A DNA stretch of 64,000 nt, taken from NCBI RefSeq assembly GCF_017875465.1, contig NZ_JAGGMQ010000001.1, forward strand, positions 186,001 through 250,000, read 5' to 3'. Below, piece by piece: positions 9,627 through 38,919 of this stretch. Origin of the DNA: Winslowiella toletana. GTDB lineage: Bacteria > Pseudomonadota > Gammaproteobacteria > Enterobacterales > Enterobacteriaceae. Under the pieces are notes generated by a model. That model ran no database searches, was not told the origin of the DNA, and was given only the letters and a program-made list of their open reading frames with translations. A program made the translations under genes and the position numbers. The first letter of the stretch is position 1; each line of letters opens with the position of its first letter.

Positions 9627-9644
9627 AAAAAAAGACCGAATACG
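9627..9644. repeat. Left prophage attachment repeat (attL core)
   Basis: The 18 bases AAAAAAAGACCGAATACG recur exactly at 40799-40816, where they are the 3' end of the sdsR small RNA gene. The two copies are in the same orientation and bracket all phage-like genes. Here the core also forms a hairpin with the following bases (AAAGACCG ... CGGTCTTT, 9631-9658). Confidence 0.85.
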
Positions 9645-9828: not shown

Positions 9829-10713
9829 TTATTCATCTGAAACAATAAAATAGCTAAAAAATGAGTAATCCACCTCGAATAAATCAGACACAGTTGCTTT
9901 ATACTTGTCTTCTAATCTTTTGATAGGTAAATGCTCCAACATTTGATACCTACTTAAAAGATCACGGAATTCCCCAGAATCGCATACACCATGATAACAA
10001 TTAAGCAAAAGGATAATTAATTCATTAGATGAGAGCTGGGCTCTTAATGTATGACAATACTGTTTTTTTTCCACTTCTGATACATAATTTTCTGGCAGAC
10101 CATCTACTATCTTCATTATTCTATAGAAGTTTCTAAAGTAATGGCCAAACCATTCATTTTTGTTATTGTTTATTTTTTTATATCTTTCAATAAGAGTTTC
10201 CTGATCCGGACAATCACTAGCCAATAGCTTAATTAACCCCCTAAAACAGTCTCGACCAAAAAACTCATGCTCTCCGATGGAAACCTTTTCCCTCCCTGTC
10301 ATCAACTCATATTCAGAACCTAGGAGATTTAAGTCAATCTTTAAATTGTTTACAATCTCATGATGAAGACTGACACCATTATAAAATGTACTTTCCACGC
10401 TTTGTATCTTCAATACTCTTTTTGTCTCAGCATATTCTTTTCTGGTCAGCAACAATTCATCCCGTTGCATGAGGATATTTTTTATGAGGCATATAAAAGT
10501 CAGGAATGTAAGTAATGGATTAGCAACACCACCAATAAAATCCCCAAACGGGCCTAAATTGGCACCCCACCCAAAATAAAGGCTAATTAAATTTACAACG
10601 AATAATAGCCATAATATAACAGCTATTACAATGGCATATTTGACTAAAACTGCCCCACTATCATCATTTAATATGCCGTCAATAAAAGAAAATGGTTTTT
10701 TATCATTTTTCAT
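9829..10713 (-). CDS. PutAbiC-like membrane abortive-infection protein
   Basis: 294 residues. Two membrane spans lie at about 23-45 and 58-82, followed by a cytoplasmic domain with the features of the putative AbiC (PutAbiC) family: QSVESTFYNGVSLHHEIV near 104-121, a central GRDCFRGL, GHYFRNFYRI at 190-199, and RAQLSSNEL at 224-232. Proteins of this family are annotated as phage abortive-infection proteins by likeness to lactococcal AbiC; the mechanism is not established. It is the last gene of the repressor operon (repressor, WYL-like protein, this gene), so it should be made in the lysogen. GC is well below the structural genes, which suggests separate acquisition. Confidence 0.8.
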   Translation of the reverse strand: MKNDKKPFSFIDGILNDDSGAVLVKYAIVIAVILWLLFVVNLISLYFGWGANLGPFGDFIGGVANPLLTFLTFICLIKNILMQRDELLLTRKEYAETKRVLKIQSVESTFYNGVSLHHEIVNNLKIDLNLLGSEYELMTGREKVSIGEHEFFGRDCFRGLIKLLASDCPDQETLIERYKKINNNKNEWFGHYFRNFYRIMKIVDGLPENYVSEVEKKQYCHTLRAQLSSNELIILLLNCYHGVCDSGEFRDLLSRYQMLEHLPIKRLEDKYKATVSDLFEVDYSFFSYFIVSDE

Positions 10714-11356: not shown

Positions 11357-12199
11357 TTAAAAATTATAATCCATCGTTAAAACTACCTTCCCGGCAGTAT
11401 TTACCTCATCAGCACCACAAGTGAAGTTAGAAGCTTTACTCGTCACGCTAATTTTTCGCCCCGGTAAAAGCGCAATATCATAAACATCGTATTTATTATC
11501 GATGCCAAGAAGCCAGCGACCATTACTGATTTCAGTCACACCTGTATCTACAATCCACGAACATGTGTTACTGAAGACAAAAACCGGCTCAATAAGCGTA
11601 TGGGGGATATAGCTTAAATCGGTGACCCAATTGCCAGCATCATGCAAAACACCTGCTGTCAGATTTTTGCGTGGAATTGCCCCTGCCTTACTTGCTTCCG
11701 AACTGTCACTTTGCTGCGCCCCTTTCCCTGTTGCCAGCCACTGAAGAGGAACACCGGTATCGAGCGCACACGTCACCACCACATCACCTGGAAAGTAATT
11801 TCTACGTACCCATGTACTGACGGTGCCGGATGAAATCCCCAGCAGCTCACAGAGTTGTTTTTGCAGGGTGAATCCGTAGGCGTCCATGATGCGGCGCAAT
11901 ACTGGCTTGCCACCGTTTGAAATGATCTCGTTATAGAGGACTTCACCTTTATGGGAGTCAGGCATACCTTCAAAACTTGCTTTTGCAAGTTCACCAGTTA
12001 CCAGCCACTGTAAATCAGCACCGGTATCTAATGCGCATTTGATGATGGCATTGCCTGGAACACTGTCGCGCTGCGTCCAACCACTGATGTTATTTGCTGG
12101 GATATCCAGAGCCGCAGCCAAGTCTTTCTGCGTATTCACGCCATACGATGACATCAATCTTTCGAGAATCTGGACGCTTCCGCCCTTATCTTCAATCAT
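11357..12199 (-). CDS. Lysogeny repressor CI with two tandem helix-turn-helix domains
   Basis: 280 residues. Residues 7-71 and 97-161 are two copies of the 186/P2-type CI N-terminal DNA-binding domain, each ending in CALDTG(A/V)xLQWL(V/A)TG, 90 residues apart. The remaining C-terminal part (about 180-280) is a beta-rich region expected for oligomerisation. In phage 186 the repressor has one such DNA-binding domain, so the duplication is unusual. It lies divergent from the cox-like gene over an inverted repeat at 12209-12237, the likely operator, and heads an operon with the WYL-like and PutAbiC genes. Confidence 0.88.
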   Translation of the reverse strand: MIEDKGGSVQILERLMSSYGVNTQKDLAAALDIPANNISGWTQRDSVPGNAIIKCALDTGADLQWLVTGELAKASFEGMPDSHKGEVLYNEIISNGGKPVLRRIMDAYGFTLQKQLCELLGISSGTVSTWVRRNYFPGDVVVTCALDTGVPLQWLATGKGAQQSDSSEASKAGAIPRKNLTAGVLHDAGNWVTDLSYIPHTLIEPVFVFSNTCSWIVDTGVTEISNGRWLLGIDNKYDVYDIALLPGRKISVTSKASNFTCGADEVNTAGKVVLTMDYNF

Positions 12200-14130: not shown

Positions 14131-14354
14131 TGGCTGACTCAATCGATATCGCCCAGCAGCGCGAGGCTGAGAATCTGGCGCGTTGCCTGGCTAACACTAT
14201 CCACCGTTCTGTTGGTGTCAGCGCGACATTCTGCGAAGTCTGTGATGCCCCGATCCCTGAAGCGCGTCGTAAAGCACTGCCAGGTGTGATGACCTGCATT
14301 CACTGCCAAACCATCCAGGAGCTTAAAAGCGCTCATTTCGGTAAGCGTCAGTGA
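14130..14354 (+). CDS. TraR/DksA-type C4 zinc-finger protein
   Basis: 74 residues with four cysteines in CEVCDAPIPEARR and CIHC, the C4 zinc finger of the TraR/DksA family. Such proteins bind the RNA polymerase secondary channel and shift promoter choice without needing ppGpp. The gene overlaps both neighbours by a few bases, so it is part of the early replication operon. In P2-like phages a gene of this type normally precedes gpA. Confidence 0.88.
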   Translation: MADSIDIAQQREAENLARCLANTIHRSVGVSATFCEVCDAPIPEARRKALPGVMTCIHCQTIQELKSAHFGKRQ

Positions 14355-16579
14355 TAATTGAATATGCCTACCCGTGGAACAAGCCACGGGCGGCCATTGC
14401 CAGCCCTTACCTCACCTATAAAGAAATCCATCGCCGCGATCAACTGATTGCGGCTGAGGCACATCTTGCGCGCCAGCCTTCACTTGTCCGTCAAAATGTT
14501 AATCGTCGCGTCAATGAACTTAAAAAAAGTCATGGTGTTCTGCGAGGCAATGCCTATCTGACGAAGTCTTTCTTCGGGCGGGCATTGCCGCGTCTTGAAC
14601 TGGTGGCAGATAAATACCGCCTGCAAATTACAGCATCCCCTTCTACTGAGGAGCTGCTGCCTGATGTTCCCCGCGCCTCATCAGCTATACATGATGTGCA
14701 GTTAGTTATCCTGATGCGCCGCTTTAACCGCCTGCCTGATATGTCGCGCAGTGATATTGATTTGCTCGCCGGTGATATCAGCAACTTTATTACCAGTGAA
14801 TTGATTCAGGTTAACAGCGAGATCGGCGAAGTATCGGAGTATCGCGCACTATGGTGCCTGTATCGTACTGCAGCCAAAATCACCCGCGTCTTAGGTCAGG
14901 CTGCACCTGCCTGGGACAAAGTAACCACGCGCTTTTTTAGTGAAGACGATGCCGCGCCGGCGATCCACAAAATGAAAGCCGAACGTTGGTGGAAAAACCT
15001 TTTACGCCGTATTGCCGCTGAATGGCGTGAGCATTTACATATTGCTCTGGCTAACGTCAGCAAAAAGCATACTCCCTATGCCAGCAACATGGCCGTATAT
15101 GAATGGCGCGAACAGAAGCGACGCACGCGCGAGTTTCTGAAAGGTATGGAGCTGGAAGATGAGGACGGCAACCGCATCAGTCTGATTGATAAGTTTGATG
15201 GCAGCATTGCCAATCCGGCGATCCGCCGCTGTGAGCTGATGACGCGTATTCGCGGCTTTGAAAACATCTGCAACCAGCTCGGTTACGTCGGCCAGTTCTA
15301 TACCCTCACCACTCCCTCGAAATATCATGCGACGACCAAATCCGGCTACCATAACCGAAAGTGGAATGGCGCCAGCCCTGCGGCAACACAGGCATATCTT
15401 TGCGGTGTCTGGCAGAAGATACGCGCCAAACTGCATCGTGAAGAATTGCGCATTTTCGGTATTCGTGTTGCCGAACCACACCACGACGGGACACCTCACT
15501 GGCATATGCTGATGTTTATGCGTCCTGAAGATGCCGCGCGCGTGACCGCGATCATCCGCAGTTATGCATACAATGAGGATGCCGCAGAGTTGAAATCAGA
15601 TAAGGCAAAGAAAGCGCGCTTTCACGCTGAAGCCATTGACCCGGATAAAGGCAGCGCTACCGGTTATGTGGCGAAGTACATTTCCAAAAATATCGACGGC
15701 TATGCACTTGATGGCGAGCTGGACGATGAAACCAACAAACCGATTAAAGAAACTGCGGGCGCAGTGTCAGCATGGGCGGCACGCTGGCGCATTCGTCAGT
15801 TTCAGTTTGTCGGCGGTGCGCCGGTAACAGTTTATCGTGAACTGCGCCGTATGGCTGACAGCGAAACCGCTCAGGGGCTTAGCGTTGAGTTTGCAGCAGC
15901 ACATGATGCCGCTGATATCGGTGACTGGGCTGCATATGTTAACGCGCAGGGCGGCCCGTTTGTGCGTCGTGACGAGCTTGCAGTACGCACCTGGTATCAG
16001 CCCGCTGCGCAACTTAATGAGTACACCGAAGAAACATTCAAGATTCAGGGTGTTTATGCAACAGCCGTTGGCGCAGATACGCCAATTCTGACCCGTCTCA
16101 AGCAGTGGAAGATTGTCGCAAAACGCGCTGTTGATTTGGCCGTTGACCTGAAGGACGCGTCTGCGTCCTCTCGGAGTTCTGTCAATAACTGTACGGGGCA
16201 GCAAACTGAGCCGCAGGAAATTGACTTCAATAAACCGCCGAGCCGGGCAGAACGGCGCCGAATACTGGCACGGATCCGCAGTAAAGACACAGTTAAGTCG
16301 GGCGAACCGCCACTCACCCACCCAGGTAACAGCGATGCGAGGCTTAAGCTGCGTGAAATGGTCAAAGACATATCCGATATCGTGCTGACTGAATCAGAGA
16401 TAACCAGAATGATGGGCGGTGGCAAAGTGACGGTGAACGGCCAACCATATTTTAGCGGTCCGGCGGGTAATCTGTATCAAGCGGCCAGAGCATCAGAAAA
16501 TCCTCTTAAGAACTTCCGACTACTGGCTAAAAAGGTTACTGATAAAGCTAACCGTATGAAAAACAGGCACTCGGACTAA
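14351..16579 (+). CDS. Replication initiation endonuclease gpA (HUH family)
   Basis: 742 residues, the size of P2 gpA. The HUH metal-binding motif is at H383-W-H385 in the context GTPHWHM, and the two catalytic tyrosines are Y439 and Y443 in GYVAKYISKN. The family nicks the phage origin on one strand, stays covalently attached and starts rolling-circle replication. The P2 origin lies within the A gene itself, so the nick site is probably here too. The gene overlaps the zinc-finger gene by four bases and appears intact. Confidence 0.95.
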   Translation: MIIEYAYPWNKPRAAIASPYLTYKEIHRRDQLIAAEAHLARQPSLVRQNVNRRVNELKKSHGVLRGNAYLTKSFFGRALPRLELVADKYRLQITASPSTEELLPDVPRASSAIHDVQLVILMRRFNRLPDMSRSDIDLLAGDISNFITSELIQVNSEIGEVSEYRALWCLYRTAAKITRVLGQAAPAWDKVTTRFFSEDDAAPAIHKMKAERWWKNLLRRIAAEWREHLHIALANVSKKHTPYASNMAVYEWREQKRRTREFLKGMELEDEDGNRISLIDKFDGSIANPAIRRCELMTRIRGFENICNQLGYVGQFYTLTTPSKYHATTKSGYHNRKWNGASPAATQAYLCGVWQKIRAKLHREELRIFGIRVAEPHHDGTPHWHMLMFMRPEDAARVTAIIRSYAYNEDAAELKSDKAKKARFHAEAIDPDKGSATGYVAKYISKNIDGYALDGELDDETNKPIKETAGAVSAWAARWRIRQFQFVGGAPVTVYRELRRMADSETAQGLSVEFAAAHDAADIGDWAAYVNAQGGPFVRRDELAVRTWYQPAAQLNEYTEETFKIQGVYATAVGADTPILTRLKQWKIVAKRAVDLAVDLKDASASSRSSVNNCTGQQTEPQEIDFNKPPSRAERRRILARIRSKDTVKSGEPPLTHPGNSDARLKLREMVKDISDIVLTESEITRMMGGGKVTVNGQPYFSGPAGNLYQAARASENPLKNFRLLAKKVTDKANRMKNRHSD

Positions 16580-16639: not shown

Positions 16640-16668
16640 ATATGAATTATGCAGGAGATAAGAGACTG

Positions 16669-16845
16669 ATGGAGTTGGATAAATTGAATGAAACAATCGC
16701 ACGTATACAGTTCATAGCGGATGTAGCGCTTATCGCACAGTGCAAACCTGATGAACTGAAGCTGGCTATGTCTTTGGTTGGTGACCTTGCTCGCGAGATT
16801 GATACCTCCAGACTGCAGGATGCAATTTTTTACCAGGCTGAGTAG
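16669..16845 (+). CDS. Small SOS-controlled phage protein, candidate inducer
   Basis: 58 residues (MELDKLNETIARIQFI...), helical, acidic, no family recognised. The ATG at 16669 has a strong start site (aggagataagagactg); an ATG at 16642 lies immediately after the LexA box and would leave no leader. In phage 186 the SOS-controlled gene tum, an antirepressor that inactivates CI, lies in the same region between A and cos. This product is much shorter than Tum and does not look like it, so an antirepressor role is inference from regulation and position. A good terminator follows. Confidence 0.75.
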   Translation: MELDKLNETIARIQFIADVALIAQCKPDELKLAMSLVGDLAREIDTSRLQDAIFYQAE

Positions 16846-17045: not shown

Positions 17046-17064
17046 GGCGTGGCGGGGAAAGCAT
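17046..17064. other. P2-type cos site
   Basis: GGCGTGGCGGGGAAAGCAT differs at two positions from the 19-base cohesive end of P2/P4 as I recall it (GGCGAGGCGGGGAAAGCAC). The surrounding 100 bases are G-rich and gene-free, as in P2. The terminase (gpP/gpM) would cut here to make virion ends. Confidence 0.85.
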
Positions 17065-17252
17065 TGCGCGCGGGGATTAGAAAGAGTTTGTTTAGTAGCA
17101 GTATATCAAAATCTATATGCAAGCAAGATTTATGGTGTAAACTGACTCCACAAGGAAGTTTAGGTGCGTTTTTTGACAAAAATCGTCAAAATTAAACGTT
17201 TAAATCCTAAAAAAGCAATTTTAGGTGAGATTTAGAGCTTAGGAGCATAAAA

Positions 17253-18518
17253 ATGTTGATCGAATTCTCAGTAGAAAACTATAGATCGATCTCAGAGCGC
17301 CAAACATTAAGCATGGTTGCGCAAAAATCAAGAGATAATAATGACAATGTGATGCCTTTAGATGACTCAGGCAAGGTTGATATTGTTAGAAGTGCAGCTA
17401 TTTATGGGCCTAATGCGGCGGGAAAATCAAATCTTGTAAGAGCCATTACAACTATGGCTGATATCATTGTGCATTCTGCAACAATGACTAATACCCCGGA
17501 TAAAATTCCGGTCACTCCTTTCATGCTAGACTCTAAATTTACAAATTCGCCATCAGAGTTCGAAATTATCTTTTCTTTTGAAGGGGTTAGGTACCAATAT
17601 GGATTTTCAACTACTGATGAGAAAATTTTAGCAGAGTGGCTGTTCGCTTTTCCTAAAGGCAGATTGCAGCGCTGGTTTACTAGGATGTGGGATAACGAAA
17701 AAAATGAATATGAGTGGGAATTAGGAAACTCTTTAGTTGGAGAAAAACAGACATGGGTAAAAGCCACAAGAAGTAATGCATTATTTCTTTCCACTGCTGT
17801 GCAATTAAATAGCAAGCAGCTATCTCCAGTATATAATTGGTTTTACTATAAATTAAAATATACTGAACTTGCCGGATGGAATGATGATTACACGTCACGA
17901 CAATGCTTTAAAGATGGAAGCGAAGAGATCCTACGTTTTCTAAAGGCTGCTGATGTCGGGATTGATGACATTCAAGTTAAAAAAGAAAAATTTAACCCAA
18001 ATAGTCTTCCTGATGATATGCCTCAGGAGTTCAAAGACCTTATTACTAAGCAGTGGCAGGGCAAAGATAGCTACATCGTTAAAACATTGCATAAAGGGGC
18101 CGATGGCAATCTTGTTGCTTTCGACTTAGATGAAGAATCTGAAGGGACAAGAAAAATTTTTAATTTCGCAGGGCCTTTAAATCATTCACTGAAAGAAGGC
18201 AATGTAATCATCATTGATGAGTTAAATGATAACTTGCATCCTAAACTAGTGGAATTTATTGTTAATTTATTTAACAACCCTTTAACTAACAAAAATAACG
18301 CTCAGCTTATTTTCACTACACATGAGACTAGTATTCTAAGTCAAGATGTATTCAGAAGAGATCAGGTCTGGTTTGTTGAAAAAGACACTGACAACACCAC
18401 CAAGCTCTTTCCGTTATCGGACTTTAGCCCAAGAAAAGGAAGAGAAAATTTAGAAACAGCTTATCTTGAAGGGAGATATGGTGCATTACCCATTATTAAG
18501 AAGCTGGAGAAGATGTAA
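17253..18518 (+). CDS. AAA ATPase, RloA/AbiLi-like, first gene of a candidate defence pair
   Basis: 421 residues. It starts with MLIEFSVENYRSISERQTLS, typical of ABC/SMC-like AAA15 ATPases, with Walker A GPNAAGKS at 52-59, Walker B VIIIDE at 318-323 and a switch histidine in FTTHE at 354-358. About 240 residues lie between A and B, as in OLD/PARIS/RloA-type proteins. It overlaps the next gene by one base (TAATG), so the two are a unit, like ATPase plus Toprim-effector pairs in AbiL, PARIS and Gabija. GC is far below the flanking phage genes. It sits between cos and the portal gene, next to but not in the usual P2 tin/old cargo site. A strong AGGAG precedes the ATG. Confidence 0.85.
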   Translation: MLIEFSVENYRSISERQTLSMVAQKSRDNNDNVMPLDDSGKVDIVRSAAIYGPNAAGKSNLVRAITTMADIIVHSATMTNTPDKIPVTPFMLDSKFTNSPSEFEIIFSFEGVRYQYGFSTTDEKILAEWLFAFPKGRLQRWFTRMWDNEKNEYEWELGNSLVGEKQTWVKATRSNALFLSTAVQLNSKQLSPVYNWFYYKLKYTELAGWNDDYTSRQCFKDGSEEILRFLKAADVGIDDIQVKKEKFNPNSLPDDMPQEFKDLITKQWQGKDSYIVKTLHKGADGNLVAFDLDEESEGTRKIFNFAGPLNHSLKEGNVIIIDELNDNLHPKLVEFIVNLFNNPLTNKNNAQLIFTTHETSILSQDVFRRDQVWFVEKDTDNTTKLFPLSDFSPRKGRENLETAYLEGRYGALPIIKKLEKM

Positions 18519-19201
18519 TGGCATCAGACAAACTATTCAATAAGATGAAGGCTCGAAAAGCATCCGATTTAAAAAGGAAAAATGCGAGCCGTAAAGCTAT
18601 GGAAAAAATACTTATAGTATGCGAGGGAGAAAAAACTGAACCCGAATATTTTGATGAAATAATCGCTCATTACAAGTTAACATCTACAGATTCAGTATTT
18701 ATCACTGGAGACTGTGGCTCAAGCCCGAAAAGTGTGGTTGAACATGCAAGAGAAGTCGATCGAAAAGAAAGCAAAAAAAGCTCACCATATGATTTAGTAT
18801 ATTGTGTTTTTGATAAAGATTCACATGCCGATTATAACACAGCCATCGAGCAGGTCAGGCAATTGAAACCTGCTGGGAAGTTTCATGTAATAAATTCAGT
18901 TCCTTGTTTTGAATATTGGTTTTTTTTACATTTCACAAATTCAAGAAAATCATTTGTGGGTGATAAAAAAAATAGTGCCGGAATGCAAATGCAGAAGGAG
19001 CTTAAAAGCCATATTCATGATTACCAAAAGAATAAAAAAGGAATGTTCGCCTTATTACATGATAAACTACAAGATGCAATCAATAATAGCATTAAAGTTA
19101 GAAAATTAGCCGAGCAAGATGGTAACGAAAACCCTTCAACTAAAGTAGATATTTTAGTTGAAAAACTCATAGAAGTAAAAAAAGGGTTTTATGGTTCTTA
19201 A
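18518..19201 (+). CDS. RloB-like Toprim-fold protein, second gene of the candidate defence pair
   Basis: 227 residues with the RloB signature: CEGEKTEPEYF with the acidic residue at E36, D99-K-D101-S-H103, and PCFEYWFFLHF at 129-139. The Glu plus Asp-x-Asp arrangement is that of Toprim nuclease domains. In related two-gene systems the ATPase senses a phage product and the Toprim-like partner is the effector that harms the cell or cuts nucleic acid. RloA/RloB genes are known as extra genes in restriction loci, and AbiL of lactococci has the same pairing as I remember it. Intact, AT-rich, and convergent with the portal gene. Confidence 0.85.
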   Translation: MASDKLFNKMKARKASDLKRKNASRKAMEKILIVCEGEKTEPEYFDEIIAHYKLTSTDSVFITGDCGSSPKSVVEHAREVDRKESKKSSPYDLVYCVFDKDSHADYNTAIEQVRQLKPAGKFHVINSVPCFEYWFFLHFTNSRKSFVGDKKNSAGMQMQKELKSHIHDYQKNKKGMFALLHDKLQDAINNSIKVRKLAEQDGNENPSTKVDILVEKLIEVKKGFYGS

Positions 19202-19250: not shown

Positions 19251-20279
19251 TTAAGAATCAAATTGGTACGTTTCAAATCTAACTACTTCATGTCTAATCC
19301 AAGCGTTTATCTCTTTAATTCGTTCCTGCAAGGGCGTTAACTCATTACGTACAAATACCTGCGAAGCCTTCACCGCATCACCAAACCCGCCCGAATTATC
19401 AGGAATAATCCCCATCATCTGCGGCGGCACCCTATGCGCACTTAGCAGATCATCCCGGCTCGCCTTCTTGATATTAAAGAAATCATCTTTAGTCGCCACT
19501 TCGCTCAGCGGCACAATCTTGATGCCATCCGGCTTACCGTTCGGCGCATACATAAACAGGTTGCGGAAGTTACCCAGCCCTTTTGTATCGCGCATCGCTT
19601 CACGCATGCGGTCGATATCGGTACTGCTCTGCGCCGCATCGGTCATATACAGGATGTAACCGGCATGGGCGCCGTTCTGGTAATACTTGCGGCGGAACAG
19701 CGTCGCCGCCTCATTCAGCCAAGCGGAGTTAAGCGCGCTGAGATATTCCGGCAGGCCATACAGCTCCTGGTTAATATCCGGCTCAACCAGATGGAAAACA
19801 CTACCCGGCTCAAAGCGATGCGCCTCTTTCCAGTTCTGTACAAACCAGTAAACGCCCTCCTCTACACCGCGCCGGGTATATTTCGCCGGCACGCACTCCA
19901 GCCGCATTGGTTCACCTAACGCATTCTTGCGCAGCTCCAGAAACGCATTACCAAATACCAGATAATCCAGCGCAAACTTGCTGAATTCCTGCTGACTCAG
20001 CAGCGGATGCGGGACGAAAGTCGACGCCAGAATATTGCGCTTAACGTAAATCGGCGAACTGTGATGCACCGCCGAGCGCAGGCTGCGCGCCAGCCCGTCA
20101 AAACTGACCGGCGGCTCATACCAGCGCCCGTTATGTATGCACTCGGCGTAATCCAGTATTTCACGCTTATCAAGTACCGGTGTCGCATCGCCAAAGCTGA
20201 ACGCCTGCGCGGACGCCGCTGGCTGCTGCAGCGGTTCTGATTTAGTGGCGAATGCCTTGCGGCCCTTGCGCTTGCTCAT
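19251..20279 (-). CDS. Portal protein gpQ
   Basis: 342 residues, the length of P2 gpQ, with the conserved DYLVFGNAFLELRKN, GVYWFVQNWKEAHRF and HRVPPQMMGIIPDN... segments of the P2-family portal. Twelve copies form the vertex ring through which DNA is packed. It overlaps the terminase gene gpP by one base (TAATG) and is transcribed leftward towards cos, as in P2. Intact. Confidence 0.95.
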   Translation of the reverse strand: MSKRKGRKAFATKSEPLQQPAASAQAFSFGDATPVLDKREILDYAECIHNGRWYEPPVSFDGLARSLRSAVHHSSPIYVKRNILASTFVPHPLLSQQEFSKFALDYLVFGNAFLELRKNALGEPMRLECVPAKYTRRGVEEGVYWFVQNWKEAHRFEPGSVFHLVEPDINQELYGLPEYLSALNSAWLNEAATLFRRKYYQNGAHAGYILYMTDAAQSSTDIDRMREAMRDTKGLGNFRNLFMYAPNGKPDGIKIVPLSEVATKDDFFNIKKASRDDLLSAHRVPPQMMGIIPDNSGGFGDAVKASQVFVRNELTPLQERIKEINAWIRHEVVRFETYQFDS

Positions 20280-22042
20280 TAATAAAACTCCACAAAGTTT
20301 GGACTCATACCACCGGCGGCGGCGGTAAGCGGTTCGTTAAGTAAGGCGTGCATAATCGCCCAGGCGACGTCGGCGTGGCTGGCGTCCTCGCTGCGGCTGG
20401 CTTCATAGGTGGAACGGTTACCGCTGGCGGTCATGGTTTTGCGGATCGCCATAAACGACTGCGTGATATCGGTGTGACCGGCGTCGTATTCGAGGCGCCC
20501 GCTGCCGATGGTGTCTTTTGCCTTCAGCACCATCGCGGTTTTCACTTCCGGCGAGTAACGGATTTCGCGCGCCGCCGGGAAAAACTGGCGTACCAGCTGG
20601 AAAACGCCCTGGCCGATGCCGGTCGCATCCACGCCGATATATTCGGTCTGATATTTTTCGGTCAGCTCTTTAATCGACTGCGCCTGCGCGGCGAAATCCA
20701 TGCCGCGCCACTGATGGCGCTCCAGCACACGGAACTTGCCACCGGCAACCAGCGGCGGCGCGATAACCGCACAGCCCGCGCTGTCGCCGGTGTGGGACGG
20801 GTCATAGCCAATCCATACCGGGCGATAATCGAACGGCCGCAGCGCATACGGGTTGAAGTCTTCCCACTCTTCCAGGCTGTCGATCATGCAGGTCTGCAGT
20901 TCGGCGAACGGGAACACGCTGGCTTCATCGTCAACGAATTCACACATCAGCAGGTTCTGGTACTCCGACGGGCTGTATTCAAGCGCCAGCTGATTGATAT
21001 CGAACAGGTTACAGCCGCCCGCCAGCGCATCATCCACGGTGACAATCTGGCGCCACTGACCATCACCACACAGCGCACCGTCGGCCAGATGGCTGTGACT
21101 TAAATCCAGCTCAATGCGGTCATTTTTGTTGCGGCGTCCGCGGTTAAACAAGTCGCCAGACCAGAACGGGTACGCGCTGTGCGAGAGGCTCGACGGCGTT
21201 GAAAAGTAGGTGGTGCGCCATTTCTTGTGCAGCGACATGCCGCTGGCGACTTTGCGCAGCTCCTGAAACTTGGGTATCCAGAAATATTCATCAAGATAGA
21301 GATTGCCGGTATAGCTCTGCGCGGTGCGGACGTTGGTGCCGAGGAATATCAGGCGCGCGCCGTTCGGCAGCACAATCGGATCGCCTTTCAGGTCAACATC
21401 CACCTGGCGGGCAAAGTCGATAATGTAGTTTTTAAACACGTGCGCCTGCGCCTTACTGGCCGACAGGAAAATCTGGTTACGCCCGGTGGTCAGCGCATCA
21501 ATGAGCGCCTCACGGGCAAAGTAAAAGGTGGCGCCAATCTGGCGCGACTTGAGGATATTGCGGATGCGGTACGCCAGCCCTGCCCGATGCCAGCCGAGCT
21601 GATATTCAAAGCAGTTATCCATAAACAGGCCGGTCAGCTTTTCGATGGCCTCATCACTGAAGACATTTTTAATCACCGGCGCGCGCTCGCCCTTATTGCG
21701 GTTACGCACGTTGGGATTGAGATCGGCCTCATTGCCGCTGTCCTTATAGCGGTTGACGCGGGCGATGCGTTCAATCTGGCGGCCTAACAGGTCAATCTCC
21801 TTGTAATCCCCTCCACTTTTCACCTCTTTGGTTATCAGCTGAATTAACCGCGCTTCCATGCTGAATTCCACACGACTGATGGGCGCGACGCTGTCCCACG
21901 CGTCGCGCAGTTTCCAGCTCTGTACGGTCGGCGTTTTGATGCTGAGCGAGTCCGCAATCTGGCGCACCGACCAGCCCTGCCAGTAAAGCAGTGCCGCCTG
22001 TCGCCGTGGGTCGCTGATGATGGTTGTCGGTGTCATGTTCAT
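20279..22042 (-). CDS. Terminase large subunit, ATPase gpP
   Basis: About 587 residues from MNMTPTTIISDPRRQAALLYWQ; the frame is open 70 codons further upstream, but that stretch overlaps the divergent promoter region and is not phage-like. An N-terminal helix-turn-helix (WSVRQIADSLSIKTPTVQSW) is followed by the packaging ATPase core: SRQIGATFYFAREAL (Walker A-like), LYLDEYFWIP (Walker B), and the nuclease-like WIGYDPSHTGDSAG. gpP with gpM cuts cos and pumps DNA through gpQ. A second ATG at 22036 is equally possible. Confidence 0.94.
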   Translation of the reverse strand: MNMTPTTIISDPRRQAALLYWQGWSVRQIADSLSIKTPTVQSWKLRDAWDSVAPISRVEFSMEARLIQLITKEVKSGGDYKEIDLLGRQIERIARVNRYKDSGNEADLNPNVRNRNKGERAPVIKNVFSDEAIEKLTGLFMDNCFEYQLGWHRAGLAYRIRNILKSRQIGATFYFAREALIDALTTGRNQIFLSASKAQAHVFKNYIIDFARQVDVDLKGDPIVLPNGARLIFLGTNVRTAQSYTGNLYLDEYFWIPKFQELRKVASGMSLHKKWRTTYFSTPSSLSHSAYPFWSGDLFNRGRRNKNDRIELDLSHSHLADGALCGDGQWRQIVTVDDALAGGCNLFDINQLALEYSPSEYQNLLMCEFVDDEASVFPFAELQTCMIDSLEEWEDFNPYALRPFDYRPVWIGYDPSHTGDSAGCAVIAPPLVAGGKFRVLERHQWRGMDFAAQAQSIKELTEKYQTEYIGVDATGIGQGVFQLVRQFFPAAREIRYSPEVKTAMVLKAKDTIGSGRLEYDAGHTDITQSFMAIRKTMTASGNRSTYEASRSEDASHADVAWAIMHALLNEPLTAAAGGMSPNFVEFY

Positions 22043-22088
22043 GGCGATAAGGCTACCGGTGCCACTGATGCCGCGCCTGCACTCTCTG

Positions 22089-22106
22089 TTGTGCAGCGAT
22101 TCACCA
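22089..22106. promoter_or_regulatory. Candidate late-promoter activator box before gpO/gpP
   Basis: TTGTG, eight bases, CACCA; an imperfect dyad that recurs with the same geometry before gpV (28902) and FI (36054). P2 late promoters are switched on by Ogr/Delta zinc-finger activators binding a TGT...ACA dyad upstream. No ogr gene is visible in this prophage. Confidence 0.45.
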
Positions 22107-22187
22107 GACCGGCATTCATTGAGAGGAGTTGTAAAGGTGGCGAAACTGGCCCTGAACCGAATCAACCCCAAACGGAACCGATCACGA

Positions 22188-23024
22188 ATGCCTAAATTAT
22201 CGAAGTTTTTCCGCGTCGCTGTCGCCGGTGATACCTGTGATGGCCGCAACATCAGCGACGCCGATATTCAGCAGATGGCTGACTCCTTTGACCCGCGCGT
22301 TTACGGCTGCCGCGTCAATCTTGAACACTTTCGCGGCCTGTTTCCCGACGGTGATTTCCGCCGCCTCGGCGATGTGACCGCGCTGAAGGCTGAGAAGATT
22401 GATGATGACTCGGCGCTTAGCGGCAAGCTGGCGCTGTTTGCGCAAATCAGCCCGACTGACGACCTGATCGCCATGACCGGCAAAAAACAGAAAATCTACA
22501 CCTCCGTTGAAATCGGCACCAACTTTGCCAACACCGGCAAAGCCTATCTGGTCGGTCTGGCCGTTACCGATGACCCGGCCAGCCTTGGCACTGAAATGCT
22601 GGCCTTCAGCGCCCAGGCTGAACACAGCCCGCTGGCCAGCCGTAAAAAAGCCCCTGAGAACCTGTTCTCTGTCGCTACCGAAACCGAACTGAGCTTTGAC
22701 GATATCGCCGACCCGGCGCCGTCGGTACTGGCACGCGTTAAGGAACTGTTCTCCGTGAAAAAGAAAACCGATGACGAGCGTTTTACCGACGTTAATGCGG
22801 CGGTGACCGTGGTCGCCGAACAGGTACAGACCAACTTTGATACCACCGCGCAGAAGTTTGACGCCCTGAATGACCGTCTTGCCGCACTGGAACAGGAAAC
22901 CGGCAACGACCGCACCACCGTGCAGACGCTGACGCAGAAGCTGGAAACCACCGACGGCAGTTTCAGCCGCCGCCCGCTGGCGAACGGTGGCGAAAGCAAA
23001 ACGGCGGTACAGACCGACTGCTGA
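22188..23024 (+). CDS. Capsid scaffolding protein/protease gpO
   Basis: 278 residues from MPKLSKFFRVAVAGDTCDGR, close to the 284 of P2 gpO; upstream in-frame codons were not used because they are antisense to the gpP N-terminus. The N-terminal domain is the serine protease that matures the capsid (FDPRVYGCRVNLEHFRG, and TSVEIGTNF around the catalytic region); the C-terminal part is a coiled-coil scaffold (LNDRLAALEQE). It is the first gene of the rightward late operon O-N-M-L. Confidence 0.92.
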   Translation: MPKLSKFFRVAVAGDTCDGRNISDADIQQMADSFDPRVYGCRVNLEHFRGLFPDGDFRRLGDVTALKAEKIDDDSALSGKLALFAQISPTDDLIAMTGKKQKIYTSVEIGTNFANTGKAYLVGLAVTDDPASLGTEMLAFSAQAEHSPLASRKKAPENLFSVATETELSFDDIADPAPSVLARVKELFSVKKKTDDERFTDVNAAVTVVAEQVQTNFDTTAQKFDALNDRLAALEQETGNDRTTVQTLTQKLETTDGSFSRRPLANGGESKTAVQTDC

Positions 23025-23075
23025 TCGGGCTTTGCCTGCGTAACCAAACCAAAAAAACTGATAACAGGAACACCA

Positions 23076-24173
23076 ATGCGCCCGAACACCCGTTTTAAAT
23101 TTAATGCTTTCCTGACCCGCGTCGCCGAGCTGAACAACGTTGATACCGGCGATATGAACAAAAAATTCACCGTTGAGCCATCGGTCAGCCAGACGCTGAT
23201 GACCCGCGTGCAGGAGTCTTCGGACTTTCTGACCCGCATCAATATCGTGCCGGTATCGGAAATGAAGGGTGAGAAAATCGGCGTCGGCGTGACCGGCTCG
23301 ATTGCCAGCACCACCGACACCGCCGGTGGCGACGAGCGTGAAACCGCCGACTTTGCCGCGCTGGATGCTGAAGGCTATGAGTGTGCGCAGGTTAACTACG
23401 ATTTCCATATCCGCTACAACACTCTCGACCTGTGGGCGCGCTATGAAGATTTTCAGGCCCGTCTGCGTGACGCCATCGTTAAGCGCCAGGCGCTGGATCG
23501 GATTATGGTCGGCTTTAACGGTCTGGCCCGTGCGAAGACTTCTAACCGTGCCGCTAATCCGTTACTGCAGGATGTCGCGACCGGCTGGCTGCAGAAGTAC
23601 CGCAAAAATGCACCGGCCCGCGTGATGAGCAAGGTGCTGGCCGAGGATGGCAGCACCGAGTCTGAAATCATCCGCATCGGCACCGGCGGCGACTACGCCA
23701 ACCTTGACGCGCTGGTAATGGACGCAACCAACACCATGATTGAGCCGTGGTTTCAGGAAGACCCTGAACTGGTAGTTATCTGCGGTCGCCAGCTACTGGC
23801 CGACAAGTATTTCCCGCTGATTAACCAGAGCCAGGCGAACACTGAGACGCTGGCCGCCGACATGATTGTCAGCCAGAAGCGCATCGGTAACCTGCCTGCG
23901 GTACGCGTGCCCTACTTCCCGAAAAACGCCCTGCTGATCACCCGCCTCGATAACCTGTCGATTTACTGGCAGGAAGGCACCCATCGCCGCCTGCTGGATG
24001 AAGTGGCGAAGCGCGACCGCATCGAGAACTACGAATCGATTAACGAGGACTATGTGATCGAGGACTACGCGGCGGGTTGCATGGTGGAAAACATCGAACT
24101 GTCAGATGTGCCGGAAGAAAAGAAAGATGGCGCCACCACTGTAACCGGTGACACACCGGAAGCCGGAGAGTAA
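23076..24173 (+). CDS. Major capsid protein gpN
   Basis: 365 residues (P2 gpN is 357), starting MRPNTRFKFNAFLTRVAELN. Conserved P2-capsid segments include FTVEPSVSQTLMTRVQESS, GFNGLARAKTSNR and RRLLDEVAKRDRIENYES. It adopts the HK97 fold and is trimmed by gpO at its N-terminus. The gene has a clear AGGA start site and sits between gpO and gpM in the standard order. Intact. Confidence 0.96.
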   Translation: MRPNTRFKFNAFLTRVAELNNVDTGDMNKKFTVEPSVSQTLMTRVQESSDFLTRINIVPVSEMKGEKIGVGVTGSIASTTDTAGGDERETADFAALDAEGYECAQVNYDFHIRYNTLDLWARYEDFQARLRDAIVKRQALDRIMVGFNGLARAKTSNRAANPLLQDVATGWLQKYRKNAPARVMSKVLAEDGSTESEIIRIGTGGDYANLDALVMDATNTMIEPWFQEDPELVVICGRQLLADKYFPLINQSQANTETLAADMIVSQKRIGNLPAVRVPYFPKNALLITRLDNLSIYWQEGTHRRLLDEVAKRDRIENYESINEDYVIEDYAAGCMVENIELSDVPEEKKDGATTVTGDTPEAGE

Positions 24174-24176
24174 CGC

Positions 24177-24845
24177 ATGTTAAGCCCTGCCCAACGTCAC
24201 ATGATGCGCCAGCAGGCGGTCGAAGCCGCACAACAGCGGGATAACCCGCTGCGCCATGCCAACGGTTATGAGCTGATGCTGATGAAGCTCAACGAAGATA
24301 AACGGCAGCTGAAAAAGGTGCGTTCGATTGAGCGTAAAGCTGAGCTGAAACGCCAGCTGCTGCCCGCTTATCTGCCGTGGGTGTCGGGCGTGCTGGAAAG
24401 CGGCAAAGGCGCACAGGATGCCATCCTGATGACGGTAATGATCTGGCGTCTTGATGCCGGTGATATTCCTGGCGCGCTGGAAATTGCCCGTTATGCGCTG
24501 CAGTTCGGCCTGGTGCCACCTGATACTTACAAGCGCAACAGCACCGCCTATCTGCTCGCCGAAGACGTTGCCGAAGCGGCTACGCGGGCATGGACGGCAA
24601 AGGAGCCGGTCGCTATCGACCCGCTGCTGGCAACGCTGGAGCTGACGAAATCCGAAGATATGCCGGATATGGTGCGCGCAAAGCTGCACAAAATTACCGG
24701 TTATACCCTTCGTGATGCGGGCAGGGCTTTGGATGCGATGGAACACCTGAAACGTGCGCTGCAGCTCGATGGCCGCTGCGGCGTCAAAAAGGACATTGAA
24801 CGGCTGGCGAATGCCATGAAAAAGCAGGCTCTCGCCAGCCGCTAA
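24177..24845 (+). CDS. Terminase small subunit, endonuclease gpM
   Basis: 222 residues; starts MLSPAQRHMMRQQAVEAA, the conserved N-terminus of P2 gpM. With gpP it makes the staggered cut at cos. The C-terminal helical repeat region (GYTLRDAGRALDAMEHLKRAL) is typical. It starts three bases after the gpN stop, consistent with coupled translation. Intact. Confidence 0.94.
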   Translation: MLSPAQRHMMRQQAVEAAQQRDNPLRHANGYELMLMKLNEDKRQLKKVRSIERKAELKRQLLPAYLPWVSGVLESGKGAQDAILMTVMIWRLDAGDIPGALEIARYALQFGLVPPDTYKRNSTAYLLAEDVAEAATRAWTAKEPVAIDPLLATLELTKSEDMPDMVRAKLHKITGYTLRDAGRALDAMEHLKRALQLDGRCGVKKDIERLANAMKKQALASR

Positions 24846-24936
24846 CGAACGCGCCCCGCGCCGGGCGGCACGGCTGTTGCGATCCGTTTTACGGTATCAA
24901 TGCCGCCGTCCACCGCCCACCTATTCAGAGGTCACT

Positions 24937-25404
24937 ATGAGCACGGTTGTTATTCCCGCACCGCGACCGGCAGACACTGCCGAGCCGCCGATCACTAACA
25001 CCTTTTTCTGGCCGGACGTTGACCTGCAGACCCTGCGCGACAGCCTGCGCTATGAAGGAACGGTGACCGCCGTGCGCCTGCGTCTGGCAATCAAAACGGC
25101 AATGTCAGAGGTCAACGCCGAGCTGTATGACTACCGCGAACGCCAGATGCTGGCCGGGTTTAAAACGCTGGCTGACGTACCGGCGGAAACCATCGACGGC
25201 GTGAGCATTAAACTGTCGCACTATTTCGCCGCCGTCAGCGCGCTGACCGCCGCGACTATCGTTGAGCGCTATCGCGGCTATGATGCCAGCGGCACGCGGA
25301 CGGCCAGCGAGATCGAATCCAGCGCCGACGAATACTGGCGCGATGCCCGCTTTATGATTGCGAAAATCGCCGGTCAGCGCCCCTGCATTATCGGGCTGCT
25401 CTGA
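24937..25404 (+). CDS. Head completion protein gpL
   Basis: 155 residues from MSTVVIPAPRPADTAEPPIT with a good start site (cagaggtcact). The segments ITNTFFWPDVDLQTLRD and GTRTASEIESSADEYWRDAR match P2-type gpL, which finishes filled heads ready for tail joining. Its stop codon overlaps the gpX start (TGATG). Confidence 0.93.
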   Translation: MSTVVIPAPRPADTAEPPITNTFFWPDVDLQTLRDSLRYEGTVTAVRLRLAIKTAMSEVNAELYDYRERQMLAGFKTLADVPAETIDGVSIKLSHYFAAVSALTAATIVERYRGYDASGTRTASEIESSADEYWRDARFMIAKIAGQRPCIIGLL

Positions 25405-25607
25405 TGCAGGTCTATGCGCAGCAGGGCGACACGGTAGACGACATCTGTTTTCGCCATTACGGGCGCACGCAGCAGGTGGTCGAAATGGTCTACGCAGCAA
25501 ACACCGGCCTCGCCGCACAGGGGCCGGTACTGCCCCACGGCTACCCGGTAGAGCTGCCCGACCTGCCGGAGTCCTCCACCCGCGACACCCTTCAACTGTG
25601 GGACTGA
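25404..25607 (+). CDS. Tail protein gpX (LysM-like)
   Basis: 67 residues, MQVYAQQGDTVDDICFRHYG, a compact LysM-type domain as in P2 gpX, which belongs to the tail assembly genes. It lies between head completion and lysis genes, the conserved location. It overlaps gpL by one base. Confidence 0.92.
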   Translation: MQVYAQQGDTVDDICFRHYGRTQQVVEMVYAANTGLAAQGPVLPHGYPVELPDLPESSTRDTLQLWD

Positions 25608-25610
25608 GCC

Positions 25611-25841
25611 ATGGAAAAAAACAGCTCCATTATCAGCTATCTGATCGGCCTGCTTATGATGTGGGCCAGCAGGCATTCGGTGCAGGACATTGCCTTTATG
25701 ACCGGCACCGTGGTTGCGCTGGTGACGCTGGTCATTAACGTGGCGAACTTTTTTATTAACTGGCATTACCGCCGCAAAACCTACCGGCTGCTGAAACAGC
25801 AGCAGATGCCTGACGAGGTGGCCGATGAGTTCCTTCGCTAA
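25611..25841 (+). CDS. Phage holin (gpY-type position)
   Basis: 76 residues with two hydrophobic spans (about 8-20 and 28-50) and a charged basic tail (WHYRRKTYRLLKQQQ), the class II holin layout. It lies directly before the lysozyme gene and overlaps it by 17 bases, so it is the pore/timing protein that triggers lysis. Its family differs from P2 gpY by eye, but the role is clear from topology and position. Confidence 0.88.
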   Translation: MEKNSSIISYLIGLLMMWASRHSVQDIAFMTGTVVALVTLVINVANFFINWHYRRKTYRLLKQQQMPDEVADEFLR

Positions 25842-26334
25842 ACGCTGCTCGGTGGCGGCAGTGCTGGCAATCGCCGTGCTGCTGCCGCAGTTCAAGCCCC
25901 TGAAAACCTCTGAGGCCGGGCTTGCGCTGATTGCCAACCTCGAAGGCTGTCGCACGTCGCCGTACCAGTGCAGCGCGGGCGTCTGGACTAACGGCATCGG
26001 CCATACCGCAGGTGTGACGGCGGCCAGCGTGATCGGTGAGCGCACGGCGGCGGTTAACCTGGTGTATGACGTGATGCGCGTCGAGCGTGCGATTGATCTC
26101 TGTATGCCGGTCGCGATGCCGCAGGGGGTTTACGACGTGGTGGTTTCCTTCGCTTTCAACGTCGGCATTACCGCCGCCTGCAGTTCCACGCTGGCGACAT
26201 TTATCAACCGGCAGCAGTGGCCGGAAGCCTGTGGTCAGCTCAGCCGCTGGGTATATGTGAAGGGGGTGATTATCGCCGGGCTGGTTAACCGGCGCGCCAC
26301 CGAGATGGCGTACTGCCTGAAGGCGGCAGCATGA
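25825..26334 (+). CDS. Signal-anchor-release endolysin (GH24 lysozyme)
   Basis: 169 residues. Residues 8-24 (CSVAAVLAIAVLLPQF) form a weak hydrophobic N-terminal anchor, as in P1/P21-type SAR endolysins. The catalytic triad follows the E-8-C-5-T spacing (E in NLEGCR, C in YQC, T in GHT). It cleaves glycosidic bonds of peptidoglycan once released into the periplasm. It overlaps both holin and i-spanin genes. Confidence 0.92.
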   Translation: MSSFAKRCSVAAVLAIAVLLPQFKPLKTSEAGLALIANLEGCRTSPYQCSAGVWTNGIGHTAGVTAASVIGERTAAVNLVYDVMRVERAIDLCMPVAMPQGVYDVVVSFAFNVGITAACSSTLATFINRQQWPEACGQLSRWVYVKGVIIAGLVNRRATEMAYCLKAAA

Positions 26335-26765
26335 ACCGGCTGCTGCTGTCACTGACGGGGCTGCTGATTGCGGCGCTGGCCTTTACCGGCTGGCGCGCGT
26401 CGCATCTGGACGGCGAACTTGCTGCCGCCCGGCGGGTTATCGGTACGCTTTCAGCGGGTATCGAGAGCCGGGATAACGCCATCAGCCGCCTGCAGAGTGA
26501 GGCCGGTGACCGCGAACAAAACGAGCTGGCCCTGCGCACCGATTTGGGTAAGGCCAGCGCGCTGACGCTGACCCGTCAGTTTAACGATCAGAAGGTGACT
26601 GATTCCGATGAAGCACTGCAAAAGTGGAGCCGTACTCCTCTGCCTGATGCTGTTATCAGGCTGCACCGGCGTCCGGCCTTCGCCAGCGCCGCAGATTATT
26701 TACGTTGGCTGTCCGAGAGTGACAAGCTGCCCGATACCGGGCAACGACCTGAAAACCGAGGCTGA
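26331..26765 (+). CDS. Inner-membrane spanin LysB
   Basis: 144 residues: one N-terminal membrane span (LLLSLTGLLIAALAFTGW) and a periplasmic coiled coil (LDGELAAARRVIGTLSAGIE ...). This is the LysB/Rz-type i-spanin that, with the nested o-spanin, fuses inner and outer membranes at the end of lysis. Its start overlaps the lysozyme stop (ATGA), and lysC is embedded in its 3' half in another frame. Confidence 0.9.
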   Translation: MNRLLLSLTGLLIAALAFTGWRASHLDGELAAARRVIGTLSAGIESRDNAISRLQSEAGDREQNELALRTDLGKASALTLTRQFNDQKVTDSDEALQKWSRTPLPDAVIRLHRRPAFASAADYLRWLSESDKLPDTGQRPENRG

Positions 26766-26922
26766 TCTGCGCGCCGATAATCGCCAGCTCGAAACCGCGC
26801 TGCTGATGTGCGGCCTGCAGGTTGAAACCATCAAAACATGCCAGGAACAACACGATGCTAAAACCGGCACAACTCCGCAGGGCGTTAACAGACAGCGTAT
26901 CGATGCTGGCGCGCAGCCCTGA
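26608..26922 (+). CDS. Outer-membrane spanin LysC, nested in lysB
   Basis: 104 residues. A lipoprotein signal with lipobox LLSGC (Cys at 19) is followed by a Pro-rich segment (VRPSPAPQIIYVGCPRV). The gene begins inside lysB in the +1 frame and runs 157 bases past it, the layout of P2 lysB/lysC. The mature lipoprotein sits in the outer membrane and binds LysB. The far C-terminus overlaps the start of gpR. Confidence 0.9.
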   Translation: MKHCKSGAVLLCLMLLSGCTGVRPSPAPQIIYVGCPRVTSCPIPGNDLKTEADLRADNRQLETALLMCGLQVETIKTCQEQHDAKTGTTPQGVNRQRIDAGAQP

Positions 26923-27322
26923 CAGCCTGAATGTATTTATCGATAACGGGCGCATTGTCTCCACGCTGGCACCGTCGCTATCGTTTGAATACCAGTACCG
27001 GCTGAATCTGGTGATCACCGATTACGCCGGTGACGTCGATTTGCTGATGGTGCCGGTGCTGGCCTGGCTGCGAGAGAACCAGCCCGATATTATGGCGACC
27101 GAAGAGAAACGCCGCACCGGCTTTGTGTTTCAGGCTGATGTGATTAGTGATGCACTGAGTGATATCAGTATTGAGCTGCAACTGACGGAACGTGTGATCG
27201 TTAAAGATATCGACGGCGCGCTGCACGTTAACCATGTTGGCGAGCCGCCGCTGCCGGAAGGCGCTGCACGTCCCACGCAGATGTATGCTGGCGGTGAACT
27301 GGTCAGCGGGTTGCAGCTATGA
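26855..27322 (+). CDS. Tail completion protein gpR
   Basis: 155 residues from MLKPAQLRRALTDSVSMLAR, the conserved gpR start; it overlaps lysC by 68 bases as in P2. Segments LAPSLSFEYQYRLNLVITDY and LPEGAARPTQMYAG are typical. gpR and gpS finish the tail so that it can join the head. Its stop overlaps the gpS start. Confidence 0.93.
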   Translation: MLKPAQLRRALTDSVSMLARSPDSLNVFIDNGRIVSTLAPSLSFEYQYRLNLVITDYAGDVDLLMVPVLAWLRENQPDIMATEEKRRTGFVFQADVISDALSDISIELQLTERVIVKDIDGALHVNHVGEPPLPEGAARPTQMYAGGELVSGLQL

Positions 27323-27774
27323 GCGAGCTGCAACCTTTTATCGACCGGCTGTCGGCACTGATTAATAACCTGTCACCGCAGGCACGCAAGCAGATAGCGA
27401 CGGCTGTCGCGCGTAAACTACGCGTCAGCCAGCAGCAGAATATTAAACGTCAGCAGGCGCCGGACGGTACGCCGTTTAAGCCGCGTAAGACTCAGCCCAT
27501 CCGTAAAAAGAAAGGCCGTATCAGGCGTGAAATGTTCGCCAAACTGCGCACGGCGAAATATATGAAAGCCAAAGGCACCGCGAACGATGCCACTGTGGAA
27601 TTTGCAGGGAGGGTGCAGCGTATGGCGCGGGTGCATCATTATGGACTGCGTGATCGTCCGGTGCGTGGTGCGGAGGATGTGCAGTATGAGGCGAGGCCGT
27701 TGCTGGGCTTTAATGAAAATGATATTCAAAAAGTACAGGAAATAATTATTCAGAAATTAGCCAGCTCTAATTAA
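27319..27774 (+). CDS. Tail completion protein gpS
   Basis: 151 residues with the P2 gpS pattern: LSALINNLSPQARKQIATAVARKL, GTPFKPRK, RRGEMF-like IRREMFAKLR, and the C-terminal ARVHHYGLRDRP segment. It ends the first late block. The stop codon lies in the loop of a hairpin, after which an unrelated minus-strand gene is inserted before gpV. Confidence 0.93.
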   Translation: MSELQPFIDRLSALINNLSPQARKQIATAVARKLRVSQQQNIKRQQAPDGTPFKPRKTQPIRKKKGRIRREMFAKLRTAKYMKAKGTANDATVEFAGRVQRMARVHHYGLRDRPVRGAEDVQYEARPLLGFNENDIQKVQEIIIQKLASSN

Positions 27775-27781
27775 GAGCTGG
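27761..27781. terminator. Hairpin between convergent gpS and DUF4917 genes
   Basis: Perfect eight-base-pair stem CCAGCTCT/AGAGCTGG with a five-base loop holding the gpS stop. The T run is weak on both sides, so efficiency is uncertain, but its place between convergent genes suggests a shared terminator. Confidence 0.45.
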
Positions 27782-27789
27782 CCAAAAGC

Positions 27790-29956: not shown

Positions 29957-29960
29957 CACT

Positions 29961-36071: not shown

Positions 36072-36144
36072 GCAAACCCTGATCGCATGCACGCCCCCGC
36101 CTGAGCTGACAATCTGAGCGCACCCTCAATACGGAGTGCATCAG

Positions 36145-36729
36145 ATGTCTGATTATCATCATGGTGTCCGCGTCGTCGAAATTAACGACGGCACGCGCAC
36201 CATTTCCACCGTTTCAACCGCTATCGTCGGCATGGTCTGCACCGCGGATGATGCCGATGCGCTGACCTTCCCGCTCGATACGCCGGTGCTGCTGACTAAC
36301 GTGCAGTCCGCCATCGGCAAGGCCGGTAAAATGGGCACGCTGGCGGTTTCGCTGCAGGCTATCGCTGACCAGTCAAAGCCGGTTACCGTTGTGGTGCGCG
36401 TGGCGGAAGGCAACAGCGAAGCGGAAACCACCTCCAATATCATTGGTAAAACCGACGAGAACGGACGTTACACCGGCATGAAAGCGCTGCTGAGCGCGCA
36501 AAGCGACCTCGGCGTGAAACCGCGCATTCTCGGCGTGCCGGGGCTGGACTCGCTCGAAGTGGCAACCGCGCTGGTGATCTGGCCCGATTTTATTGCCTGG
36601 AACACTACGGCGAACGCCTCCGAAACCGCTTACGCCACGGCGCGGGCGCTGGGCCTGCGCGCCAGAATTGACAACGACACCGGCTGGTATAAGACCCTGT
36701 CTAACGTTGGCGTTAACCGACTTGAGTGA
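36145..36729 (+). pseudogene. Tail sheath gpFI, internally deleted and truncated
   Basis: Starts [20 protein letters not shown] like P2 gpFI, with a good start site (cggagtgcatcag). Compared with the P2 protein from memory, roughly 35 residues are missing in frame after [10 protein letters not shown] (the next residues are VIWPDFIAW), and the frame ends after [15 protein letters not shown], about 190 residues in, where normal sheath has about 396. The last codons belong to the phage remnant beyond the junction at about 36720. A functional sheath cannot be made. Confidence 0.9.
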
Positions 36730-38912: not shown

Positions 38913-38919
38913 TCATGCA

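Follow-up and report, generated by a model that had tools for sequence, protein, structure and literature searches.

An AbiL-Type ATPase–RloB Gene Pair, Probably Defence Cargo, beside cos in a Decayed P2-Like Prophage

We analysed a 64,000-nucleotide stretch of the Winslowiella toletana genome (contig NZ_JAGGMQ010000001.1, positions 186,001 to 250,000 of the forward strand; hereafter the window), and report here on two adjacent genes, encoding an AbiLi-like ATPase and an RloB-family protein, that lie between the cos site and the portal gene of a P2-like prophage. With good confidence we regard them as an AbiL-type defence module that is cargo of the hotspot between phage genes A and Q, in the half from cos to the portal gene, that has stayed intact in a decayed prophage, and that works by a mechanism in which the ATPase would restrain RloB. 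The pair is a further member of an already known defence family, in an already known hotspot. AbiL is among the less studied ATPase–effector defence families, and its P2-borne copies in phages of Enterobacterales would be convenient for testing in Escherichia coli; the window copy has apparently persisted beyond its phage, a point relevant to whether such cargo benefits the cell.

The Gene Pair

17253..18518, plus strand: AbiLi-like (RloA-like) ABC-type ATPase, 421 amino acids (aa); from the open reading frame (ORF) list, PADLOC, Pfam, alignment and structure model
18518..19201, plus strand: AbiLii-like RloB protein (PF13707), 227 aa, the predicted effector, with conserved E36, D99, D101 and E132; from the ORF, PADLOC, Pfam and alignment

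A first-pass annotation, made from the sequence alone, had described two ORFs with a one-base overlap and a set of motifs, all of which were confirmed in place. The overlap falls within ATGTAATGG; the ATPase has a Walker A motif (GPNAAGKS, residues 52–59), a Walker B motif (VIIIDE, 318–323) and His357, and RloB has the motifs EGEKTE (36–41), DKDSH (99–103) and FEYWFFLHF (131–139). A conserved ESEGT at residues 295–299 of the ATPase looks, in our own reading, like an ABC signature. In an alignment of 40 ATPases, residues G52, N54, G57, K58, D322, E323 and H357 are either invariant or conserved to 90% or more, and E36, G37, K39, T40, E41, D99, D101, H103 and E132 likewise in an alignment of 51 RloB proteins, the window's own being included in each. 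The predicted model of the ATPase has an ABC fold, with the ABC ATPase motifs intact. Both genes had also been called AT-rich in a GC-rich phage, and their GC contents are indeed 36.9% (ATPase) and 33.6% (RloB), against 57.1% across positions 19251–35000.

The ATPase matches Pfam AAA_21 (1.6e-40) and the second protein matches Pfam RloB (PF13707, 3e-42). A hidden Markov model search, which the annotation had proposed as a check, was run with PADLOC and gave matches to AbiLi (PDLC02335, 9.2e-103) for the ATPase and AbiLii (PDLC02337, 1.5e-28) for RloB, both profile alignments being partial. Because of these Pfam and PADLOC matches, we do not attribute the pair to chance. On the strength of its sequence, it is an AbiL-type two-gene module with the ATPase first, and the PADLOC profiles support the earlier suggestion of an ATPase–RloB pair of the AbiL kind carried by a mobile element. 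The window pair shares gene order and two-gene organization with AbiL as first described on a Lactococcus plasmid, but it is carried by a P2-like prophage instead, and the likeness is drawn through the profiles, not through the lactococcal proteins themselves.

We fetched 123 loci holding RloB relatives, 43 of them viral and 80 from genomes; since the genome loci are the best 80 of at least 554 relatives, this set leans to close ones. An AbiLi-like ATPase lies directly upstream of RloB in 120 of the 123, and the other three are cut by contig ends, beginning within 126 bases of the RloB match. The junctions between the two genes range from an overlap of 44 bases to a spacing of 29 bases, 46 of them having a one-base overlap.

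The Slot between cos and the Portal Gene

14351..16579, plus strand: replication gene A (Phage_GPA), bounding the A-Q hotspot on the left; from Pfam and tblastn
16642..16845, plus strand: small phage ORF, 67 aa, phrog_1993 (unknown function); from a PHROG match
17046..17064, plus strand: P2-type cos core, the 19-base cohesive-end sequence GGCGTGGCGGGGAAAGCAT, with two differences from the annotated P2 cosL; its first base is the start given in the first-pass annotation
17065..17252, plus strand: leader of 188 bases from cos to the first gene; homology to Erwinia phage ENT90 stops 8 bases past the cos core
19251..20279, minus strand: portal gene Q, which bounds the slot on the right and is transcribed convergently to the pair; from Pfam and tblastn

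The pair lies between the genes for gpA and gpQ and adjoins cos, with 49 bases from the RloB stop to the end of Q. Phage ENT90, whose portal is 83% identical to that of the window, represents the unoccupied version, in which cos and Q are about 210 bases apart. The A-Q interval of P2-like phages has already been described as a defence hotspot (Rousset et al., PMC9122126; Vassallo et al., PMC9519451), and in passages of those two papers that deal with it the hotspot is not divided at cos. The P2 cargo genes tin and old likewise lie between A and Q beside cos, but on the A side, whereas the window pair lies on the Q side. That tin and old are across cos from the pair had been stated in the first-pass annotation and is true; the end of Q in P2 is at base 187, counted from the left end. 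The annotation's further claim of a different slot holds relative to P2 itself; as a novelty, however, the slot was rejected, since the distance from cos to Q exceeds 700 bp in 43 of the 95 loci surveyed below and the published hotspot covers it.

The same slot holds the same kind of pair in Klebsiella phage ST13-OXA48phi12.1 (locus L002), whose RloB and ATPase are 45% and 56% identical to those of the window and whose two genes are one base apart rather than overlapping. In the leader, a promoter scan gave no plus-strand sigma-70 match, sites being no more numerous than in shuffles. An inverted repeat, TTTTGAC-N7-GTCAAAA, was read by eye at 17171–17191 upstream of the ATPase gene, and could be due to chance in AT-rich DNA.

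The Surrounding Prophage

Judged by its gene content, the prophage is a decayed P2-like remnant without most of its F operon. We searched the window by tblastn with 33 P2 and 11 ENT90 proteins, the ENT90 counterparts of E and U being chosen by position. Q, P, O, N, M, L, X, lysB, R, S, V, W, J, I and A were found, together with the N-terminal part only of tail fibre H, whereas FII, E, T, U, D, ogr and int had no match in the window with either the P2 or the ENT90 protein. Also unmatched there were P2 Y, K, lysA, G, orf30, fun, C, cox and B, which are of types that vary among P2-like phages. The sheath gene is broken:

36136..36729, plus strand: truncated tail sheath gene FI, marking the prophage break; match to P2 FI residues 1–234 of 396

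Its ORF stops at 36729, and across the whole genome we found no PF04984 sheath and no relatives of the ENT90 tape measure and tube. The tape-measure result is informative because the same query matches 24 of the 37 genomes of a genus set, some of these matches being weak or partial; the tube query had no comparable control. A CI-type repressor is present (11357–12199), and within the window the integrase family PF00589 is matched by a single ORF of 154 aa (40250–40714). The prophage thus lacks the combination of full tail operon, ogr and integrase by which an active P2-like prophage would be recognized. The first-pass annotation had proposed that packaging would include the pair, which would then reach the cell at one end of the DNA; with the sheath truncated and tube, tape measure, U, D and ogr unmatched, packaging and injection of this copy acting alone would probably fail.

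The break region (36136–41000) comprises the truncated sheath, the unmatched F operon, an unknown ORF (39331–40014) in an AT-rich stretch and the 154-aa integrase ORF. An exact direct repeat of 18 bases, at 9627–9644 and 40799–40816, brackets the element and may be an attachment-site core.

Two other genes of the remnant deserve mention. A DUF4917 gene (27790–28809, minus strand) matches the PADLOC candidate family PDC-S21 (3e-124), lies between tail genes S and V in the position of P2's orf30, within an AT-rich stretch (37% GC at 28001–29000), and is likely a second defence gene. A putAbiC gene (9829–10713, minus strand; PF16872 9.9e-18, PADLOC AbiC 1.7e-9), near the CI repressor at the left end of the prophage, is a candidate third.

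A Proposed Mechanism

We propose that a multimer of the ABC-type ATPase would bind and restrain the RloB effector, by analogy with AriA/AriB and a published RloB–AAA pair. Infection by another phage would supply a trigger sensed by the ATPase, and the freed RloB, acting as a metal-dependent Toprim-like nuclease through E36 and D99/D101, would cut nucleic acid, with RNA (tRNA, for example) a likelier substrate than DNA. Its action would arrest the infected cell before phage progeny form. Restraint is supported in a distant relative; trigger, nuclease activity, substrate and phenotype we infer. Among open-licence PMC papers, we found none on an RloB trigger or substrate. The abortive anti-phage role suggested in the first-pass annotation is the most likely one for the pair.

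In PARIS, an AriA hexamer is described as holding AriB, phage proteins as the trigger, and tRNA as what AriB cuts (PMC12409363). Among the pairs validated by toxicity neutralisation is one from Clostridium algidicarnis that belongs to the RloB node (D44) and whose partner is an AAA protein, and the relevant passages of that paper speculate that such pairs are Abi systems; they add that a phage screen of another AAA-neutralised pair (AarT) yielded no hits and that modelling produced no convincing AAA–toxin interface (PMC10440598). AbiLii of Fusobacterium nucleatum is reported to be toxic in E. coli and not neutralised by its own AbiLi, and AbiLii of Lactococcus lactis not to be toxic (PMC3985639).

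Neutralisation of an RloB-type toxin by its AAA partner (PMC10440598) would also be in keeping with a module that is mainly toxin–antitoxin-like, an addiction system keeping the prophage region in place with phage defence secondary or absent, as would the survival of an intact pair in a prophage without its tail genes. We think this improbable, however, because PADLOC files both families as defence and the slot is a defence hotspot. Addiction modules generally have small, labile antitoxins, unlike the 421-aa ABC ATPase of the window.

For the defence mechanism proposed here, RloB is probably a Toprim-like nuclease. The earlier Toprim assignment is nevertheless weak. The order of strands and the placement of E and DxD agree with it, as does a published HHpred statement (PMC10440598), but our other comparisons do not support it: in a fold comparison of RloB the OLD Toprim rows were tied with unrelated folds, hhalign found no similarity between RloB and the Toprim of P2 OLD (20 column-shuffled controls scored alike), and the same method detected no profile similarity between RloB and three AriB-like proteins. 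A phmmer search against PDB gave no clear relative, the best row being OLD 6p74 for the ATPase (E 0.0047) and one at E 0.45 for RloB.

Relatives of the Pair and Their Context

Relatives of the window phage's A, P or Q accompany the pair in 10 of the 43 viral loci (L131–L136, L139, L155, L156 and L166), an eleventh (L147) having the cos core alone, and in one of the 80 genome loci (L224). The fetched flanks of the other 79 hold none, although in only 42 of the 80 do they reach 4.5 kb or more upstream of RloB and 3 kb or more downstream, such that distant portals could be missed. Because of these 79 loci, we consider that the module is not tied to P2 biology. An RloB tree of 122 rows has at least seven changes between P2 and non-P2 context; it was built by a quick method with 39 of 111 branches open, and contigs that end early may hide P2 context. 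These distributions bear on the idea that the pair serves the phage itself, by excluding P2-like phages or P4-like satellites or by acting in lytic growth. The pair is, after all, phage cargo adjoining cos, and a P2-like TIR system from the A-Q hotspot acts on P2 itself (PMC9122126), but given the near absence of P2 genes from the genome loci and the decay of the prophage in the window, we regard such a role as quite unlikely.

Within P2-like contexts, the pair occurs on both sides of cos: on the Q side in six cases (window, L002, L131, L132, L135 and L139) and on the A side in five (L133, L134, L136, L147 and L156). The position of cos in these eleven loci is that of the closest match to a 28-base string, with 22 to 28 of the 28 bases agreeing; on the opposite strand of the same loci, the window excepted, the best match reaches 15 to 19. 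Close relatives are found on both sides: RloB from L002, on the Q side, and RloB from L133, on the A side, share 72% identity.

The pair is uncommon. RloB is present in 1 of the 37 genomes of the genus set, matches, some partial, occur in 32 of 394 genomes of an order set, and 16 of 5,426 E. coli genomes have a copy (69% DNA identity across 72% of the query). In two of these E. coli chromosomes (L286 and L287), the pair is not in a P2 A-Q interval but is flanked on one side by a prophage integrase gene and on the other by a second integrase gene, with satellite-like genes beyond it; viral contigs L128, L129, L130 and L137 are copies of this locus. L129, which adjoins satellite-like genes, has a 25-of-28 cos-like match on the other strand and was left out of the P2-context count. 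A distant RloB–ATPase pair makes up half of a mobilizable E. coli plasmid (NZ_AP027671.1; 3,916 bases), and more plasmids of 3.7–3.9 kb are among the matches listed (25 of 61 plasmid records with a match).

Comparison with Known Systems

Some relatives of the pair are named RloB or RloA by their sources, Rlo standing for 'restriction-linked ORF', but no restriction-modification genes lie immediately beside the window pair. It is very unlikely indeed that the two genes are accessory to type I restriction-modification, as the name would suggest, for none of the immediate neighbours (A, the 67-aa ORF, cos, Q and P) is a restriction (hsd) gene, and the annotation of the 3.9-kb plasmid has the distant pair adjoining a Rop-family gene only (PLSDB gene tables are incomplete).

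PARIS (AriA and AriB) resembles the window pair in having an ABC ATPase followed by a separate effector, and two AriAB-like loci share its one-base overlap. The spacing between E and DxD in the effectors of these two loci, 54 and 56 residues, is close to the 62–63 of RloB. The effector in the window is RloB, not DUF4435. PARIS was rejected on finding no PF14491 (DUF4435) match in the genome, RloB being the effector's only Pfam match at E 0.001. The ATPase core is related to that of P2 OLD (hhalign 77% over 74 columns), but in OLD, as in Gabija GajA, ATPase and Toprim form one chain, whereas the window has two; OLD and Gabija were rejected on these two separate ORFs; RloB also could not be aligned with the OLD Toprim by profile. 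Septu was also rejected, the second gene being RloB with no HNH (PtuB) match.

Cargo on Either Side of cos

When viral contigs were scanned for the cos core, at least 120 loci (L007–L126) were obtained, of which 24 without a usable portal match and L076, with its portal match on the wrong side, were left out and 95 counted. The distance from cos to Q is at most 250 bp in 42 of these, intermediate in 10 and more than 700 bp in 43. Sixty-eight loci have both A and Q; with long sides defined as more than 1200 bp (A) and more than 700 bp (Q), 30 are long on the A side and short on the Q side, 22 the reverse, 9 long on both and 7 short on both. The Fisher p of 2e-5 overstates this association, since the loci are related rather than phylogenetically independent and the cut-offs were set after the distances were seen. 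In these P2-like viral contigs the cargo side of cos correlates with cos sequence type:

P2's cos type, 27 loci: Q side at most 250 bp in 24, more than 700 bp in 3
cos ending ATACGA, 30 loci: at most 250 bp in 2, more than 700 bp in 24
cos GCGTGGCGGGG[AT]AGCAT (the window's own type), 31 loci: at most 250 bp in 12, more than 700 bp in 14
other cos types, 7 loci: at most 250 bp in 4, more than 700 bp in 2

The survey refines the published A-Q hotspot, in that the cargo side follows cos type and AbiL is found on both sides; this two-sided use of the hotspot around cos is a more interesting by-product than the pair itself. We tentatively suggest, as a possibility that we hold at rather less than even, that cos splits the hotspot into two half-slots filled largely complementarily by different lineages, with AbiL in both, that cargo may be exchanged at the two ends of the DNA as packaged and not in the A-Q interval as such, and that modules can switch sides of cos. 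If this is so, the window remnant would represent a module kept by the host after decay of the phage.

A joint-alignment scan of 120 cargo representatives gave family counts only, without members, and 20 Q-side proteins were therefore scanned singly, one from each of the first 20 of the 38 representative loci and in every case the product of the longest Q-side ORF. PADLOC matches of 1e-10 or better were obtained for 10 of the 20, including retron and other reverse transcriptases, bSEFIR and a restriction enzyme, and in five of these 10 the top match is a candidate PDC family.
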